Source: Hyaloraphidium curvatum
Lineage: Eukaryota; Monoblepharomycota; Hyaloraphidiomycetes; Hyaloraphidiales; Hyaloraphidiaceae
DNA: 64,000 nucleotides
Reading direction: 5' to 3'
NCBI GenBank assembly: GCA_025558095.1
Contig: JAIVFI010000034.1
Coordinates: 434,001-498,000 of the forward strand
Part shown: piece after piece, positions 935 to 54,271 of the stretch
Position numbering within the stretch: the first letter of the stretch is position 1
Layout: each line of letters starts with the position of its first letter
Position numbers and translations under genes: made by a program
The notes under the pieces: generated by a model
Database searches by the model: none
The model's input: only the letters and a program-made list of their open reading frames with translations
What the model was told of the DNA's origin: nothing

Positions 935-3900
935 ATGGACGACTCGCGGAAGCGGCGGCGGTACGACGACGAATACGGCGATCGGCGGCGGGACGATCGC
1001 CGGCGTTCGCGGTCGCGGTCGACGTCGCCGCACCGCAAGCGGCGGGACGAGAAACGGGACGAGCGGCGGGAGGAGCGCCCCCGCGAGGAGCGGCCGCGCG
1101 AGGAGCGGCCGCGCGAGGAGCGGCCGCGCGAGGAGCCGCGCGACGATGCGCGGCCGAACGGCCACGCCGCGAACGGCGGCGGTCCGCCGCGGGCGCCCGA
1201 CGGGGCGGAGCGCGCCGCCGAGGACGACGTGAAGAAGCAGCGGCTGGCGAAGCTCGAGCTGTGGCGGCGCCAGCAGGCCGCGAAGGCGGGCGGCAACTCG
1301 CCGGCGGACCGCGAGGCGTCGCCGCAGCCGCAGCCGTCGCCGCGGAAGGAGCTGGCGCCCCTGGCGCGCCCGTCGCCGCCGCCGCTGGCCCGCCCGGCAG
1401 CCCTCAACGGGCCGGCGAAGTCCGGCCCGGCAAAGTTCGCGCCGACGAACCGGAGCAAGCTGGGCTTCGACGACGACGACGACGAGGAGGGCGCCGCCGT
1501 GGTGCGGCGCGGGCCGAAGCTGAAGAGCATCGAGGAGCTGATGCGGGGCGACGCAAAGGACGATGCGCCCGCAAAGCCCGAGCCATCGCCCGCAAACGGC
1601 GCGGGGCCGAACGGCAGGCAGTCGGACCCCATGGACGTGGACGGCCCGGTCGAGGAGGACCCGCTGGACGCCTTCATGGTCGACGTGTCGGCCGAGATGA
1701 AGAAGCTCGTTCAGGACGGCTCCGGCCCGGCGAGGCCGCAGGACACGCTTCTGGAGGAGGACGAGGGCGCTGTCGGGGAGGCCGTGCTCAAGATCGACGA
1801 GGACGACGAGGACAATCCAGCTGGGGACAATGAGGAGGACATCCTTGCGTGGGTTTCGCTTAATCCGTCTGGCCTTGTCCGCAACGCTGACTGCAATCCC
1901 GCCGCCATCAGGCTCGCGGCGAAAGCCAAGCTCGCAAAGAAGAAGGACCTCGCCGTCGTCGACCACGCTTCGCAAAAGTACGAGCCTTTCCGGAAGGACT
2001 TTTGGGTCGAGCCGCCGGAGCTCGCGCAGATGGCACAGGAGGAGGTGGACATTGCTCGCGCCGAGCTCGACGGGATAAAAATCCGCGGCGTGGACTGCCC
2101 CAAGCCCGCGCGGAAATGGACGCAGCTCGGGCTTCCGCCGGGCGGGATGGAGGTCATCCGCCGAGTGCTGAAGTACGAGAAACCCTCCCCGATCCAGTCC
2201 CAGGCTATCCCGGCCATCATGTCGGGGCGGGACGTCATTGGCGTCGCCAAAACGGGCAGCGGGAAGACCATCGCCTTCCTGCTGCCCATGTTCCGGCACA
2301 TCAAGGACCAGCGCCCCCTGGCGGCGGGGGAAGGACCTATCGCGCTCATCATGACCCCGACGCGCGAGCTGGCACTGCAGATCCACAAGGACTGCCGGCA
2401 CTTTGCGCGGATCATGGGCCTCCGTTCCGTCTGCGCGTACGGTGGGAGCCCGATAAAGGACCAGATCGCGGACATGAAGCGGGGCGCTGAGATTGTCGTG
2501 TGCACGCCGGGCAGGATGATTGACCTGCTGTGCGCTAATTCGGGGCGCGTGACAAACCTGAAGCGGGTGACTTACCTGGTGGGTGCGAGCCGCTGGTTCT
2601 CCCGAAGCGAAGCTGGACGCTCTCCCCGCAGGTGCTCGACGAAGCCGACCGCATGTTCGACATGGGTTTCGAGCCCCAGGTCATGAAGATCGTCAACAAC
2701 ATCCGCCCCGACCGGCAGACCGTCCTTTTTTCCGCCACCTTCCCCCGGCAGATGGAGGCCCTCGCGCGCAAGATTCTCACCAAGCCCCTCGAAATCACCG
2801 TCGGCGGGCGCAGCACCGTCGCTCCCGAGGTGACGCAGATCGTCGAGGTGCTGCCCGAGGAGGCCAAGTTCCTGCGGCTGCTCAAGATCCTGGGCAACTG
2901 GGAGAACGACGGCAACGAGGAGCAGCGCGCCCTCATCTTTGTCGAGAAGCAGGAAAAGTCGGACAAGCTGCTCGGCGACCTCATGCACCACGGCTACTCG
3001 CCGCTGTCCATCCACGGCGGCAAGGACCAGATGGACCGCGACTCAACCATTGCCGACTTCAAGACGGGCGTGACAAAGATCCTCATCGCCACGTCGGTCG
3101 CGGCGCGCGGGCTCGACGTCAAGTCGCTGAACCTGGTCGTCAACTTTGACACGCCGAACCACATGGAGGACTACGTGCACCGTGTCGGACGCACGGGCCG
3201 GGCCGGCAACAAGGGGACTGCCTACACCTTCATCTCGCCAGACCAGGAAAAGTACGCCGTGGACATTGTCAAGGCCCTCAAGATGTCGGGCACGCACGTG
3301 CCGGAGGACCTGCAGGCCCTGGCCGACGGCTTCATCGCCAAGGTCAAGGCGGGCAACGCAAAGTTCCACGGTTCCGGGTACGGCGGCAAGGGTCTGGACA
3401 AGCTGGACCAGCAGCGCGACATCCAGAAGAAGGTGGAGAAGAAGCTGCACGGCGCCGATGCCGGAGAGGAGGAGGAGGAGGAGCCCGAGGCGCTCGAGGC
3501 CGAGGCCAAGAAGCTGGCCGGCGTGGCGGTGCCCGAGCCCGAGGCACCCAAGCCGGCCGCCGAGGCCGCCGCCGTCAGTGCGCTTCCCAAAGGCGCCGTA
3601 TCGGACGCCATCCGCGCGGCCCAGGAGAAGGCCGCGGCCATCAACGCCGCCCTGGGCTTGGGCAAGCCGCCGGCGTCCAACATCATCAACCAGATCAACC
3701 TCAAGTTCCGGACCGACGGCGGCGCAAATCAGGGACCCGCCCTGCCCAGCGCATCGCCCTACTCGCTCGAGATCGAGATCAACGACTACCCTCAAAAGGC
3801 CCGGTGGAAGGTCACGAACAAGGTGGGTTTGACTCGTGCAGTGGTGCGAAGTGCTCATGCTGAAGTTTTCCCCATCGCCGCAGGAACAAATGTCGCAGAT

Positions 3901-45730: not shown

Positions 45731-47476
<1,746 letters not shown>

Positions 47477-47768
47477 ATGGATTGTATTTGACTTGGAGCT
47501 GTATGTACGCATTGGGACCAAACGCACGGAACCAGTCTGGTCTGGTCTAGTTTATCCGCCGGCGTCGTACTACATGAGTAACTCGATGCCACTAGGTTTT
47601 CAGAGGCAAACTGATCTACTCGCCCTACTACAACAACCTAATCGGACCGACGGTTGCCCCGTTGAATAGTGGTGTTTTCAAAACAACCGGGACTCTTTGC
47701 AAAAGAAGTTCTATATATCACTACCTATGTAAAGCGAATACCCTTCACGTCTCTATCTCCACCATAAG

Positions 47769-48323
47769 CTAAACAACAACTACCAAATTGCCGAGCTGGA
47801 AGCGCACGTCGATCGTCAGCGTCGTCAGCCCGGTGGTCATGGGGAAGGCGGTTCCGGAATTCTGGCCGATGAAGTCGATGATCAAAGGCTTGATCCTCAG
47901 GTACCGAAAGTGCATCAGAATGGGTATTGCGTCGATGTTTTGAACCGTCCTGGTCGAGCTATGAAGTCAGTAGTAGAGGTCTCGATCGATGATTGCTTAC
48001 GCACTGCCATAGGGCGGGTCCGTTGAAGACGTTCTGGCAGAAGACCTTGATGACCGCCTGTGCAGGCGGAAACCCGGGCGTGCCTTGATGTCCAGGTATG
48101 AGCAGTATGGCAAGGATGTGGGGCGCCAGTCCGTTCATGATGGCATTGCCAAGCGCCCGGAACTCCCTGTTGACCATGTTGGATGTATCACCGTTGGCGA
48201 TCTGGAAGTAGCGTATCCCGATTGCATTCCATGGTTCATCCCCATGTTGATCACATTCATTTTCTTAACTGCCGGACCAACGGGCTGCGCCATCAGGATG
48301 TTTCCGTGGAGCACCCTATTCAT
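47769..48323 (-). CDS. unrecognised three-exon gene next to the Fanzor locus
   Basis: Exons 48255-48323, 48005-48201 and 47769-47958 join to 151 aa (456 nt, whole codons). It starts MNRVLHGNILMAQPVGPAVK, continues with SNMVNREFRALGNAIMNGLA and VIKVFCQNVFNG, and ends FPMTTGLTTLTIDVRFQLGN before the stop. The donors GTGATC and GTGCGT and acceptors CAG and TAG are in the local style (introns 53 and 46 nt). I recognise no domain. The alternating hydrophobic C-terminal strands suggest a beta-rich protein. It lies in an AT-richer stretch, and could be a cargo gene or a remnant. Further 5' exons are possible. Confidence 0.45.
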
Positions 48324-48983
48324 TGCGTGCAACGAACCAGGGAGGCATTGGCAGCCACCAAAAAGGGTTGTATGCTGGATTGGAGACCGCCAGAGAAGGG
48401 ATGAGGGCCCACTGCAAGGGGCCGAAGACGCCAAAGTATTGAAGAAAGTTGTGCACAGTCCCGTGAACGGTGGGATCGTAGACCAGGGCGCCCCAACGCA
48501 CCCGAATGAAGTGGTCTATGGAAAGAAAATCCCGAGGACCGGCCAATGCCAGGGGAAAAGCCATGTGCCGGCCTCAAGAAACCGGGGGTGCAGAGGATTG
48601 ACGGGATTCGCGCGGGGATCCGTGCTCGAGCCGGGTGAGCCGCGAACCCCAGTCGCGACAACCTCATTCACACAATTCCTGCAGTTCGTTGGTGAGCTCG
48701 ACTCCGGATTGCCTCCGACGTAGTTGCTGACCTTCTTTCTTTCAGACGTCGGTAGTTTCGCGCCCCGCTTCGCTCTCCGCCGGCATGGCATTCGGGTGCG
48801 GAGTCCGAATCCGCCTCGCCGGTCGCATGGTCATCCACTGCACCAGCCGGTTCTAGGTGGGCCGCAAGTACACGGCCATTGCCTCCGACCTCGACCCCTG
48901 CCCAAGTCACCGCATCGAGGTCCGTTCCCTCGACCGTCGACGTGTATCAATCGAGCTCTAACATTGTTTGCAACAGCAGTGAC
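48324..48983. other. upstream region between the unknown gene and Fanzor
   Basis: About 660 bases. Short hydrophobic frames on the minus strand (for example 48316-48564) do not connect to the neighbouring exons by usable splice sites. It may hold divergent promoters or decayed sequence. No terminal inverted repeat was recognised. Confidence 0.4.
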
Positions 48984-51900
48984 ATGGGGTCGAAACGAGG
49001 GCGAACATCGGACAAGGGGTCGGACAGCGACGATCCCGGCGAAGGGTCTTCGGCACACCCACCTGCTCCCCGGAAGCGCGCCAACCAAGCCGGCGAGTCC
49101 GAGGTCGTCGATGCTGCAGCTCAGCTTCCCGTGGCCGTGGCCGTGCCGCCCAACTCCGAGTCCGACGACACGGAGCTCGCATCGTCGCTGGTGGCCGCCG
49201 TGTCGCAGAATGACACCGAGTCGGACGACTCCCGGCCCAAGGAGGCGATTCCCCAGAAGCGGCCCCGCAAGGACGGCGACAAGGGCAAGGAGCAGGCCGA
49301 ACCCGTCCCGTCGTCTCCGAAAGGCCCCGAGCCCAAGAAGGCGAAGAAGAAGGGCTACGATGCCGCCGCCGCCGCTGCCCAGGCGGCCCTGGCGCCCGAA
49401 CATTCTGCCCACCTCGAGCAAGCCAACGTGCCCACCGGTTGCCCCGCCCTGCTTTGCGGAAACACTGATCATTGGGATGCCGGTCACGGCGACGGGAGCG
49501 GCTGCCAGTTGTTTCCCTGCGGGAGCCTCTACCACAACACCAAGGAACATCTGAAGCGGCCCGATCCCCGCATGCCTTTCATGTGCCCGCACTGCGACCC
49601 GCTCAACACGCTCGACCACGACGAAGGTTTTCACTCGGTCTGCGGCACGTGTGGCGAGCGTGACCATGGCGACATCGCCCACGCGCACCCTTGCGACGCC
49701 CTCGTGTGTACCGGGAGGATCTGGGCGTCGCGTTCAAAGGAGGAACTGTGGGAGATGGTCGCAAATGGCTTCCTGTCCGAGAACGTGCTGTACTCGTGGT
49801 TCCCCCTGATCTCGTACGAGGACCACGTGCTCGAGCACAAGCATACCTTCGTTTCCGTGGAGGAGCCCAACGGTTGCCGGCCTTTCCTCGTTCACTGCGG
49901 CTCGCTGGGCCACACTCGCGCGGCGCACGACGGGGTAGAGCCTCTGTACTGTTCGCAGTGCGGATCGTTTGAGCACCGGGCCAAGGAGCACGTGCACTAC
50001 ATGTCTGCGTGCCACACGAGCGCCAACGGCTGCGGACAAAGGGGTCACTCGAAGGTTACCGCCGGGGCCTGCGTGCTCAACATCAACGATCTGAAGAAGC
50101 TCACGCCCAAGGAGGCGCTGGACGAGCTCATGGGCCCGCAGTCTGCCCAGAGGACCGTTGTCATGGCGTTCCAAAAGTTCCTGAGGTACGGGGACCGGAC
50201 GGCGCGGGAACCCGCGAGCCCAGAGGAGGAACTAGCTGCCACGCTCTACGAGGTCATCGAGGATGCCATCGGGCGGTTCACGAAGCTCTCGTTCGAGATG
50301 TCTCTGTTCATGGACCTCTTCTTCAAGTACGTGCGCGACTTGCGGCTACTGGGAGGGAACCTTCGGTACCCTCACCTGGACATGAGCCTCGGCCTGAACG
50401 CCTTCTTCGCCGTGGCGGCGCCACTCGACGGCGACGAAGACCACGCCGATACTCTGGTGCCGCTTCTGAACACGTTCCGCGACACGGAATGGCTGGGCTG
50501 CGTCAAACGAGCTGCTCGTCACGGCTACAAGCGGACGTCACGCGTTGGCCTCGACCAGATCATGCGGACCGCGTCACAAGGCTACGTGACGGCTGCCATG
50601 AACTCGGCGAAGGAAAACCTGCACGATCGGGTGCGCGCGTGGACGATCTGCAGGCTGCGCATCCCGCTGCAACCACGGCCATCGCGACCCACTTTGTCAA
50701 CAGCCTGAAGTTCTGGGATCCGAGGGAGCACCCCGCCAACACGAACCGGCCCTTCACGCTGCCAAACAACGAGCTCTACGACAAGGTCATGACCGACCCG
50801 CTGCTCCTGGAGATCTGCCGCGACGTCTACACCGAGCTGCGCGACGACCTGCTCAAGGGTCTCTACCTCAACCCGTACTGGGTCGCGTACCACTGGCAGA
50901 GGTTCTTCGACGTCCTGTTCCGCATCCAGCGGGAGCACGAGGCGCTGCGCAAGAAGCTGGTGCAGTGGACGGAGAACTTGAGCAAGAGCGAGAGGAAGTT
51001 CGCTCTCCGCAACTTTCCCTACAACCACAAGCTCGTGAAGCCCTTCAACGTCCTCCCGCGCTTCTCGACCGAAGCCAAGCACATCCTCATCGACCGCATC
51101 GCTCTTCACCAGCTCATCCAGGTGGCGCAGCGGCGGCTCGGCCAGGAGCCCACCTCGCTGGCCGACTACCTCGCCGCGGAAGCCGAGGATCCGGAGCACT
51201 GGTGGCGCATGTTCTTCCGGCCGGAGAAGGTCAACACCGGCGGCGCCGAGAATCCATCGAGGCACTTCGACTACTCCTTCTCCACCGATGCCGTGAAGGC
51301 CTCGATCACGGTTCGCGTGCGGAAGCCGGCAGAGGAGCAGCCCGGCACGTCGTTCTCCGACATCAAGATCCCCGGCATGTCCGTTGCCGGGCTCGACCCC
51401 GGCAGCACAGCCATCCTCACGATTTCGACGGGGCTCTCGACGCCGGGGGACGACAAGCACCACGGCCACAGCAAAGCCGTCAGCGTCTCCGCGGGCGAGT
51501 ACTACCACCTCGCCCGGTACAAGAACAACACGTGGAAAGCAAACCAGCGCAAGAAGCGGCACCCGTCCATCCTTGAGATCGAGCGCGACACGCCCGTGGC
51601 CAAGGCCTCCACGGTCGCTCACACCAAGCTGTACATCCACCACTGTCTCAAGCACCTCTCCACGATCGTCGGCTTCTACGGGACAAAGGTCCACCGGCGG
51701 TCTCGGTTCGACCGGTACATCGGCAAGCACACCGCGCAGGAAGCCGTTGCCGAGAAGGTCATCAAGGGCTGCGGCGTCGAAGCGGAGCGCCTTATACTTG
51801 CGTTCGGCAAGGCCAGGTTCCGTCACAACATGCGCGGCGGCGTCACGACTCCAGGGTCGGCACTGGCGTGGCTGAAGCGCATCCTGCGCCGCCGCGGCGT

Positions 51901-52239
51901 CACGGTCACCGAGGACGTGGAGGAAGACATGACGTCGCAGATCTGCGCGGCGTGCTGGGAAAAGGTCGGCAAACAACACCCGAAGAACGGGCACTACCAG
52001 ATCAAGGATTGCAGAAATCCGGATTGTTTGATCAAGTGCTGGAATCGGTTCGTTGCCTTAGGTTCTCGTCACGCAGCTCCTGACACTTCGGCCGCAGGGA
52101 CGTCATGGCTGCCACCAACATCCGCACCATTGCCTTGTCGGAGATCCTCCACGGAGGCAGGCCTCCCGTGTTCTTCTCGACGCGGAGGGCCAACTTCGAG
52201 GGACGCGATCCGGCGAGCGCGGGTGTCATCGTCAACTAG
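48984..52239 (+). CDS. Fanzor nuclease (eukaryotic TnpB/IS200-605 relative) with N-terminal zinc-knuckle array
   Basis: Exons 48984-50638, 50704-52047 and 52098-52239 encode 1,046 aa. Fanzors are RNA-guided DNA endonucleases related to TnpB and Cas12. RuvC-I is VAGLDPGSTAILTIS (D783). The alternative Fanzor-type glutamate is in VEEDMTSQICAACWEK (E958/E959). The zinc ribbon runs CAAC (966-969) to DCRNPDCLIKC. RuvC-III NRDVMAATNIRTIAL (D1001) appears only when the 50-nt intron 52048-52097 is removed. Residues 1-150 are disordered with basic NLS-like patches (KRPRKDGDKGK, KKAKKK). Residues 153-363 hold five exact C-x(2,6)-CGx3Hx4H repeats. The first intron's exact borders (50639-50703) are one of three frame-compatible choices. 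All catalytic residues look intact. Confidence 0.9.
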
Positions 52240-52685
52240 GGTCTTTCGGCCCTCCAACGACTCCTGCGTGTGTGACGATCCCGCTCAACGGTCAACTCTT
52301 GCGATCTTGAGTTCGCTCTCGAAAGCAAGGGTCGTGGCCGATCCGATCCCGACTGAGCTATGCAATGATGTTTTGATCGGGCGGGGCATCTATCCGCGGG
52401 CTCGGTCCGGGCGATCAGTGATACGGAGAAGACCCCGGCGGGTGGGAGCAGGAACCAAAACAATGGAGGTAGGGTTCATTGCTCCGGAGTCGGCGTAACC
52501 AATCGCCGTAGTACGAGCAGGATGCCGGGAGGTATTGTGGTTGGCTTAGTTTTTGGTTTCTTAGAGGCTCCCGTTCATTCTGTAAACGGTACTAGAAACT
52601 TTTTCGATCACGCTACTTAAGCGCCGTGACACCGACACCGACCGTAAACAACTTAACAAAGAACCTTCATCTCTTTCTCGCAGCC
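52240..52685. other. 3' flank of Fanzor, candidate guide-RNA region
   Basis: About 450 bases between the Fanzor stop and Pwp1. In TnpB and Fanzor elements the guide (omega/fRNA) is usually transcribed from the 3' end and flank of the nuclease gene. Here a CCGATC (about 52336-52341) can pair with GATCGG (about 52376-52381). That is weak evidence alone. The last 150 bases are AT-richer and must also contain the Pwp1 promoter. No terminal inverted repeat is recognised. Confidence 0.3.
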
Positions 52686-54271
52686 ATGATCAGCGCGCTG
52701 GCGTTCCTGCCGCGCGGGGCGGCTGCCGAGAAGCCGTCCGTGTATCGGCCGAGCGCCGAAGACCTCGAGAAGCTGCGCGAGCTCGCCGGCGAGGAGGTCG
52801 AGGCCGCCCGCAGCGACCTCGAGCGGGCGATGGGCGAGCCCGGCGACGGCATGGAGGACGACTCGGACGCCGAGTCCGGCAGCGACAGCGGGGACAACAA
52901 AAAAAAGATCTCCCGCAAGGCAGTGCCGCCGGGCAAGGCGAACCCGGAGGACCTCAGCGAGTACCACCTGGAAGATTACGACGACGGCGAGGGCCCCGCG
53001 GACCCCGCCTCCCGGCTTTTCTCCAACGTTTCTGCCCTTGCGGTTCCTGGGCCGGACCCGTACCTGGACACTGAGGCTGCGGACAGCGACGACGACGAGC
53101 TGGTGGTCCTGGCTTCTGACGGCGTAATCATCGCCGCCCGCACCGAGGACGAAGTGAGCACCGTCGAAGTGCTGGTTTACGAGAGGGAAGAGGGCAATGC
53201 TTATGTGAGGAACGACTGGATGGTGACGGGAATGCCGCTGTGCCTCGAATGGATGGACTTTGGTCCCGGTGCCGAAAAGGGTGGGTGTTACTTGGTAGCG
53301 CCGTGGAATCTCCACCAACATTACCTTCTTATTCATTCATAGGTTCCTACATTGCCGTCGGGTCTTTCGAGTCGACCATTGACGTGTGGTCTCTGGACGT
53401 GGTCGACGCCATGCTCCCCACCTTCGTGATCGGCACCGCGCTCCCGAAGAAGACCGGCAAGAAGAAGTCCAAGCTCGTCCAAAAATCCGACGTCCAGCAC
53501 ACGGGCGCCGTCGTTTCTCTAGCGTGGAACCGGAACGCTCGGCATCTGCTCGCTTCCGGGTCCGCCGACACGACCGTGAAGCTCTGGGACCTCAATTCGC
53601 CGTCTGCCGCGGTGGCGAGCTACGCGCACCACACTGCGCCCGTTCAGGCGCTGCAGTGGCATCCTACGGACGCACCGCTGCTCGTCTCTGCCTCGCACGA
53701 CAAGACCGCGCGCGTGATCGACTCCCGTGCCCCCGCTTCCGGCCTTTCCTTCGACCTCCCCGCCGATGCCGAGGCTGCGCGCTGGCTTCCTTCAGGCGAC
53801 CGCTTCTTAGTTGCCTGCGAGGACGGTGCGGTGTTGTGCTTCGACCCGCGTTCGTCGCAGCGCGTGTGGACTCTGCAGGCCCACGAGGGTGCCTGCTCCG
53901 GCCTCGACGCCTCGCCCACATTCCCTGGGCTTGTCGTGACGGGCGGCGCAGACCGGACTTGCAAGGTCTGGGACATGCGGGAGAAGCCCCGCATGCTGGC
54001 CAGCAGGGAGTTCCAGGCCGGCCGCATCTTCTCGGCACAGCTGGCGCCGGATGCCGCCTGCGTCGCGGTCGGTGGGACTGGCGGCAAGGTGGTCCTGTGG
54101 GATCTTGGCGAAGTCGACTCCGTTCGGCGCGCCTGGGAAGGGGTCGAGGGAGAAGGCGAGAACAGGCGGGAGGTTGTGGTTGTGGAGGAAGGCGGCAGCG
54201 GGGACGAGGCGGACAGCGACGACGAGGAAGGAGAGAACGCGGGTAGTGATGGGGAGATGGAGGAAGATTGA
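52686..54271 (+). CDS. PWP1: Pwp1 (periodic tryptophan protein 1), ribosome-biogenesis WD40
   Basis: Exons 52686-53280 and 53343-54271 (62-nt intron) encode 507 aa. Pwp1 is a nucleolar WD40 protein needed for 60S assembly. The start MISALAFLPRGAA is the conserved Pwp1 N-terminus (LxWxPRGxA type). After an acidic linker come LSEYHLEDYDD, IAVGSFESTIDVWSLDVVD, ASGSADTTVKLWDL, VSASHDKTARVIDSR, TGGADRTCKVWDM and GGKVVLWDL. The C-terminal 50 residues are very acidic, as usual. Splicing gives GSYIAVGSFES, a conserved blade start. Confidence 0.95.

Follow-up and report, generated by a model that had tools for sequence, protein, structure and literature searches.

An array of eight predicted zinc-binding modules ahead of the core of a mobile Fanzor1 subfamily in Hyaloraphidium curvatum

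We know of no settled answer to the question of what Fanzor nucleases do for their transposons. An accessory domain under selection would offer a handle on this role, since knowing its partner or ligand would reveal the process to which the guided cut is tied. The locus described here raises this question. It lies in a window of 64,000 nucleotides (contig C34, positions 434001-498000) of the 31.9-Mb genome of Hyaloraphidium curvatum (55 contigs), in which a first-pass annotation had pointed to a probable array of zinc modules in cis with a Fanzor. We asked whether this array is a genuine domain of the nuclease and what it might do there.

The Fanzor gene starts at the ATG at position 48984, and the stretch that holds the array, residues 153-363, corresponds to 49440-50072 (Table 1). 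The window copy is itself broken. Indeed, while its residues 1-574 are open to position 50705, its frame is lost around 50671 as compared with sister copies, and about 60 nt common to the others are absent there. Two sister copies, L010 (contig C31) and L011 (C1), are intact, with a single open frame running through array and core, and others (L012 on C7; L013, L014, L015 on C2) are broken by lesions at other sites than in the window copy. L010 was used as the reference for the window family, its motif positions being the same as in the window. By the predicted splice, the protein has about 1,090 residues (1,042 + 46), as compared with 600-700 for Fanzor1 proteins.

Protein database searches returned five proteins (P0001 to P0005). 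P0001 and P0002 are gene models, out of frame or truncated, that derive from the copies of H. curvatum itself, P0003 (source lgn) and P0004 (source ena) possess the array, and P0005 begins within the core, with no array region to judge. P0002 (DFJ74DRAFT_147441) is the single named public protein model returned by searches for the window family; it begins outside the frame of array and core and is without the array, so that surveys of annotated proteins could miss the array.

Table 1. Features of the Fanzor element, in positions of the 64,000-nucleotide window
Feature	Positions	Strand	Pattern, content or basis
Whole transposable element, including TA at each end	47667..52594	+	limits of the homology among six copies
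Left terminal inverted repeat with TA	47667..47692	+	copy alignment, end comparison
Companion-gene remnant, 204-aa ORF	47962..48564	-	two stops in window copy
Fanzor exon 1, first part	48984..50671	+	low-complexity N-terminal tail (residues 1-152), array, core start
R1	49440..49487	+	C153-x4-C158-x4-H163-x4-H168; C158, H163 invariant in the three sequences covering R1
R2	49503..49550	+	C174-x4-C179-x4-H184-x4-H189; 4/4 ligands invariant in three sequences
R3	49584..49634	+	C201-x2-C204-x7-H212-x4-H217; x3 or x4 in relatives
R4	49641..49682	+	C220-x2-C223-x4-H228-x4-H233
R5	49692..49844	+	C237-x4-C242 ... H285-x-H287; 35-residue insertion, missing from L009, P0003, P0004
R6	49875..49928	+	C298-x6-C305-x4-H310-x4-H315
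R7	49950..49991	+	C323-x2-C326-x4-H331-x4-H336; sub-threshold Pfam zf-CCHC match
R8	50013..50072	+	H344-x5-C350-x4-H355-x7-C363
Fanzor exon 1, rest (other frame in window copy)	50672..52047	+	RuvC-I DPG, RuvC-II Glu, C4 zinc finger
Predicted GT-AG intron, 50 nt, splitting WNRD	52048..52097	+	copy divergence and uninterrupted relatives
Predicted Fanzor exon 2, from the RuvC-III aspartate through the stop	52098..52239	+	sequence, copy divergence
3' noncoding region to right end, candidate guide (omega) RNA	52241..52592	+	low copy divergence
Right terminal inverted repeat with TA	52569..52594	-	copy alignment, end comparison

The core resembles Fanzor1 proteins (SpuFz1, GtFz1 and PpFz1) in having a RuvC D-E-D triad with DPG, a glutamate ahead of a C4 finger, and WN-RD. 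The RuvC-I DPG (residues 825-827 of L010) is aligned and invariant in P0003 and in L009, a divergent paralog on contig C14, and is also present in P0004. The RuvC-II glutamate lies six residues ahead of the first CxxC (VDEDMTSQICAAC in L010, VDEYLTSQTCPCC in P0003), just before the TSQ-C-x2-C finger; a glutamate at this distance is the alternative RuvC-II in the regular expression given in PMC10711439. WNRD is the RuvC-III motif. In P0003 and P0004 the C4 zinc finger is followed by the RuvC-III RD in direct reading, while in the window family this requires the removal of the predicted intron, where both relatives read CWNRDVMAAANI uninterrupted; among six copies, the intron diverges by 7.7% (0.077) as against 0.7% (0.007) for exon 2. 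L010 alone retrieved no solved Fanzor1 at E<=1. With P0004, GtFz1 was matched at E 6.5e-4, and profile A2 matched SpuFz1 (E 0.0065) and GtFz1 (E 0.038), all of these matches being weak and correctly placed. Because of the DPG, the glutamate with its C4 finger, the WNRD and these weak, correctly placed matches, we conclude from motifs and alignments that the core belongs to Fanzor1, which bears out the proposal of a probable zinc-module array in cis with a Fanzor.

Comparison with the relatives resolved eight consecutive Cys/His four-ligand modules (R1-R8) ahead of the core, mostly of the pattern C-x2/4/6-C-x4-H-x4-H, the last one being H-x5-C-x4-H-x7-C. The first-pass annotation had listed five exact CGx3Hx4H repeats, each with a second cysteine upstream, plus degenerate copies. 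The five motifs were recovered exactly (residues 158, 179, 223, 305 and 326), with the second cysteine 5, 5, 3, 7 and 3 residues before them, and so was the spacing C-x2-C-x4-H-x4-H at 220-233 and 323-336; the number of modules is eight, however, the variants R3, R5 and R8 having been counted as degenerate or missed. Each module would hold one zinc. The five CGx3Hx4H motifs of L010 compare with at most one when the residues of this stretch are shuffled 20,000 times, and the four of L009 with at most two in as many shuffles. In addition, the blocks R2-R4 and R6-R8 resemble the two halves of an internal duplication: they align with each other with an hhalign P of 1.4e-5, and 0 of 200 column shuffles were as good. 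When only the non-Cys/His columns were shuffled, again 0 of 200 were as good; the best of these (1.7e-5) came close, so the signal consists mostly of ligand spacing.

The modules were then followed in an aligned set of four sequences (L010, L009, P0003 and P0004), in which P0003 starts at R3 and the open frame of P0004 starts inside R1, R1-R2 being covered by three sequences. Identity is 41% for L009 (core) and 44-45% for P0003 and P0004; as these two are about 80% identical to each other, the relatives represent three lineages, two of them within one genome. Among lineages, identity is 39-44% in the array and 41-47% in the core. All 24 predicted ligands of R3-R8 are invariant in the four sequences, and so is H235. 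In the array, 25 of 29 Cys/His columns are invariant versus 13 of 95 other columns, and the exceptions (H203, H304, H338 and C343) are none of them predicted ligands; the corresponding counts for the core are 8 of 33 versus 177 of 603. As judged from these alignments, the array is kept in distant relatives. The low pN/pS values likewise indicate that it is under purifying selection: pooled over the seven window-family copies, some of them broken and their pairs non-independent, pN/pS is 0.34 for the array, 0.32 for the core and 0.27 for the N-terminal tail. The tail being as low, this constraint among copies is not peculiar to the array.

These results bear on the possibility that the Cys/His pattern is no zinc array, arising by chance from composition, being the remains of something decayed, or serving metal storage or redox chemistry with no defined modules. 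It would agree with the broken state of the window copy and with the finding that over the array all Pfam families stay below their cut-offs, L009 matching other zinc families below threshold. The shuffles, the ligands invariant in four sequences, the purifying selection and the regular four-ligand modules all speak against it, and we regard it as very improbable. The array is a real, selected and apparently undescribed domain of Fanzor1.

The searches for further carriers had the following reach. The protein database matches numbered 3, 2 and 3 among 8000, 7468 and 7999 scored candidates sharing words with the queries; the second of these queries did not recover P0003, its own member, so that distant relatives may escape. 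No relative was found in the viral collection scanned with L010, A2, L043 and P0004 (3, 56, 5 and 3 pattern matches), nor among the 218 pattern matches of A2 in the prokaryote genome collection. When the genome was searched with the L009 array, 14 rows were obtained: itself, 12 in window-family Fanzor copies and one weak match (E 0.16, C12), which was dropped since it proved on reading to be without the modules.

What kind of zinc module could this be? Like CCHC knuckles (PF00098), the array is tandem, has C-x2-C-x4-H in R4 and R7, and carries a glycine right after the second cysteine in six of the eight window modules. It differs from them by a histidine as fourth ligand in R1-R7, by C-x4/6-C variants, by its acidity and by the lack of a conserved aromatic residue in R3-R8. 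The strict CCHC form (C-x2-C-x4-H-x4-C) was rejected: none of the eight window modules follows it, R4 and R7 ending in histidine and R8 being different, and Pfam stays below its cut-off. Accordingly, the likeness to the retroviral knuckle that had been proposed does not hold in a strict sense, since zf-CCHC scores 15.4-16.0 bits against a cut-off of 20.8 and matches R7 alone, other rows of the window family being weaker still. The classical C2H2 zinc finger, C-x2/4-C-x12-H-x3/5-H, was also rejected; the cysteine-to-histidine spacing is x4 in six of eight modules, and no Pfam C2H2 match was obtained. R8 is the sole module ending in cysteine, and our guess is that it is the ancestral knuckle that the array grew from.

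CCHC knuckles of other mobile-element proteins grip nucleic acid, and multi-knuckle proteins such as CNBP are known. The array could likewise be a string of zinc knuckles gripping guide RNA or else DNA, either the displaced strand or the ends of the element. The C-x2-C-x4-H-x4-H spacing and the glycine after the second cysteine recall such a knuckle, as does the weak match at R7 (16.0 and 15.4 bits); W164 and R196 are invariant around R1-R2 in the three sequences covering them, and a protein holding nucleic acid could make use of both; the array adjoins the recognition lobe; and H. curvatum has a second Fanzor family in which a CCHC-type motif precedes the core (see below). Nucleocapsid knuckles, however, typically have aromatic residues that stack on bases, as well as basic residues. 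Here, neither kind occurs among the 13 invariant columns of R3-R8 that are not ligands: these hold only glycine, alanine, proline, leucine, serine and valine, with no K, R, F, W or Y. Moreover, the net charge of the array is negative in every sequence (-12 in L010, -14 in L009, -10 in P0003 and -11 in P0004) beside a basic core (+25, +27, +15 and +21, respectively). Both features lean against a retroviral-type grip on single-stranded nucleic acid. Specific contacts may nevertheless allow an acidic zinc module to hold nucleic acid, and we rate a grip on RNA or DNA as only a little less probable than the role discussed next, although the acidity of the array leads us not to favour it.

The reading that we tentatively favour, with limited confidence, is that this mobile Fanzor1 subfamily carries an N-terminal array of eight modules, predicted to bind zinc, that serves chiefly as a protein dock. 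The array would be a folded acidic accessory lobe fixed immediately ahead of the recognition lobe, and its chief task would be protein docking and not the reading of guide or target bases. Our main reason for preferring docking to a grip on nucleic acid is that the array is acidic and has no invariant basic or aromatic residue in R3-R8. It is also supported by a precedent, the FRI of PpFz1, an accessory Fanzor1 domain acting as a protein dock: this insertion of about 100 residues inside the RuvC domain, made of helices, sheets and a loop, binds cyclophilin (PMC11423790). Both are accessory domains grafted onto a Fanzor1 core, the FRI being placed inside RuvC. The candidate partners of the array are the transposase of the element, a companion protein or a host nuclear factor, and binding of such a partner would couple the guided cut to transposition or chromatin.

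The opposite charges of array and core in all four sequences also invite another explanation, in which the array is an intramolecular acidic lid on the basic trench of the core, released by guide or target and restraining cuts in the host genome. The fixed neighbour of the array is indeed the core, as the N-terminal tail varies (L010 and L009 have tails of unlike length and sequence, and among copies the tail diverges by 6.9%). Against such a lid, the residues that are kept are the ligands, and no aspartate or glutamate is invariant in R3-R8, the only ones being D170 and D194 near R1-R2, invariant in three sequences; we consider it quite unlikely. Extending the docking reading, the acidic eight-zinc array might limit cutting to a transposition or repair complex via a specific partner, be it the transposase, the companion protein or a host chromatin factor, making these proteins tethered RNA-guided nucleases. 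While we rate this proposal as rather unlikely, if true it would mean that a eukaryotic RNA-guided nuclease has evolved a domain for coupling, which exceeds the FRI of PpFz1 in size and is differently made.

The Fanzor gene resides in an element of about 4.9 kb, with an inner part at 47669-52592. Its inverted ends are imperfect (18 of 26 positions identical), a score that no pair reached when 20,000 were drawn at random from this region. A genome search with each end led to six copies, L015, a seventh copy, being without ends; the 26-base left end is found with at most 3 mismatches in five of the six copies, and the right end is complete in five of six. These ends are absent among the 25 longest of 224 repeat pairs, and rest on the copy alignment and the end comparison. 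With either end as query, no short ghost elements were seen in the genome. The element has TA-flanked inverted ends but no recognised transposase. In five of six copies the base ahead of the left TA is A, from which we infer an ATA-like target motif, near the ATN of PpFz1 (PMC11423790) and the CATA of SpuFz1 (PMC10432273). The target motifs of SpuFz1 and GtFz1 are swapped between these two articles. The core would do standard Fanzor chemistry, taking its guide RNA from the 3' end and cutting beside the ATA-like motif. As for the host genes around the element, a flavin-containing monooxygenase lies upstream (46370-47476) and a WD40-repeat protein downstream (53240-54271).

The second gene of the element encodes a companion protein of no known family. 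In L010 its open reading frame covers 2381-2995 (-), with a possible second exon at 2191-2337. In the genome it is found only at the six element copies, in five of which it is stop-free, with 0-5 amino-acid changes per copy pair. It has no match in Pfam, NCBIfam, PHROGs or PADLOC. An identification as an Argonaute Mid domain was rejected, being supported by none of Pfam, PDB, NCBIfam, PHROGs and PADLOC; the ArgoMid match of the genome lies only elsewhere.

L009 carries its array-bearing Fanzor inside a different element (L009 543-6084), with inverted ends identical at 27 of 30 positions, so the array goes with the Fanzor core and not with one type of element. There the second gene is an interrupted transposase frame of IS630-type DDE_3 (29.1 bits against a cut-off of 28.6), a neighbourhood that speaks for docking. 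Since the two elements differ in their second gene, a partner common to both would have to be a host factor.

Downstream of the gene, the 3' noncoding region is the least divergent among the noncoding stretches compared. Mean pairwise divergence among six copies is 0.7% in 52241-52416, where one 120-bp window is at zero, and 2.1% in the rest; for comparison, it is 4.75% in the stretch separating the genes, 5.9% close to the left end, 7.7% in the intron, 3.6% at third codon positions of the core and 0.7% in exon 2. This constraint fits a candidate guide RNA. According to PMC10432273, the SpuFz1 scaffold is the last 75 nt ahead of the guide, whereas here the half farther from the element end is the more constrained. 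Covariation was found in 0 of 112 pairs of the region, Rfam gave no match to it, and the folding z-scores (-1.8 and -0.7) lend no extra support.

Fanzor1 is known from Tc/mariner elements with TA target-site duplications, terminal inverted repeats and a transposase that is kept or lost (PMC3627910). The window element resembles these in its TA duplications and terminal inverted repeats, and more generally shares with Fanzor1 elements its mobile nature, the TA next to its inverted ends and the constraint on its 3' noncoding region; the relevant passages of PMC3627910 mention no N-terminal zinc array. The passages on Fanzor in PMC3627910, PMC10432273, PMC10711439 and PMC11423790 describe the C4 finger, the FRI insertion and N-termini that are disordered in two Fanzor2 proteins, and no zinc array was seen in them; in particular, an N-terminal tail with an eight-module array is not mentioned in those of PMC10432273 and PMC11423790. 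In an open collection of 5.39 million papers, to which the search was confined, we found no paper pairing Fanzor or TnpB with a zinc knuckle, Fanzor with CCHC, or Fanzor with Hyaloraphidium, in keeping with the earlier remark that no described Fanzor with such a module was known. Apart from the handle that it may offer on the role of Fanzor in transposons, the array represents a naturally tolerated N-terminal addition on a compact eukaryotic RNA-guided nuclease.

The genome of H. curvatum also contains a second Fanzor family (L040-L043), which resembles the window family in having a zinc-knuckle motif ahead of the core and differs from it in having one CCHC and no array. A single C-x2-C-x4-H-x7-C precedes the core in 4/4 loci read (C-[GA]-R-C-G-G-A-D-H-E-R-[AS]-S-N-R-L-C), in the frame of the core in L041-L043 and in another frame in L040. 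In the three locus pairs compared, identity is 95-97% over 4.8 kb or more. Against this family, a search with P0003 matched only a core stretch of about 125 residues, at 34-35% identity. Scanning every frame for the pattern found no CCHC motif in the remaining Fanzor-like loci that were read (L044-L049). Two of these loci, L047 (1-5043) and L048 (45-5087), form a 5-kb repeat that is 99.7% identical and holds a Fanzor-like gene, which probably has introns, as its frame switches; 10 genomic positions carry a 159-bp match to this family.
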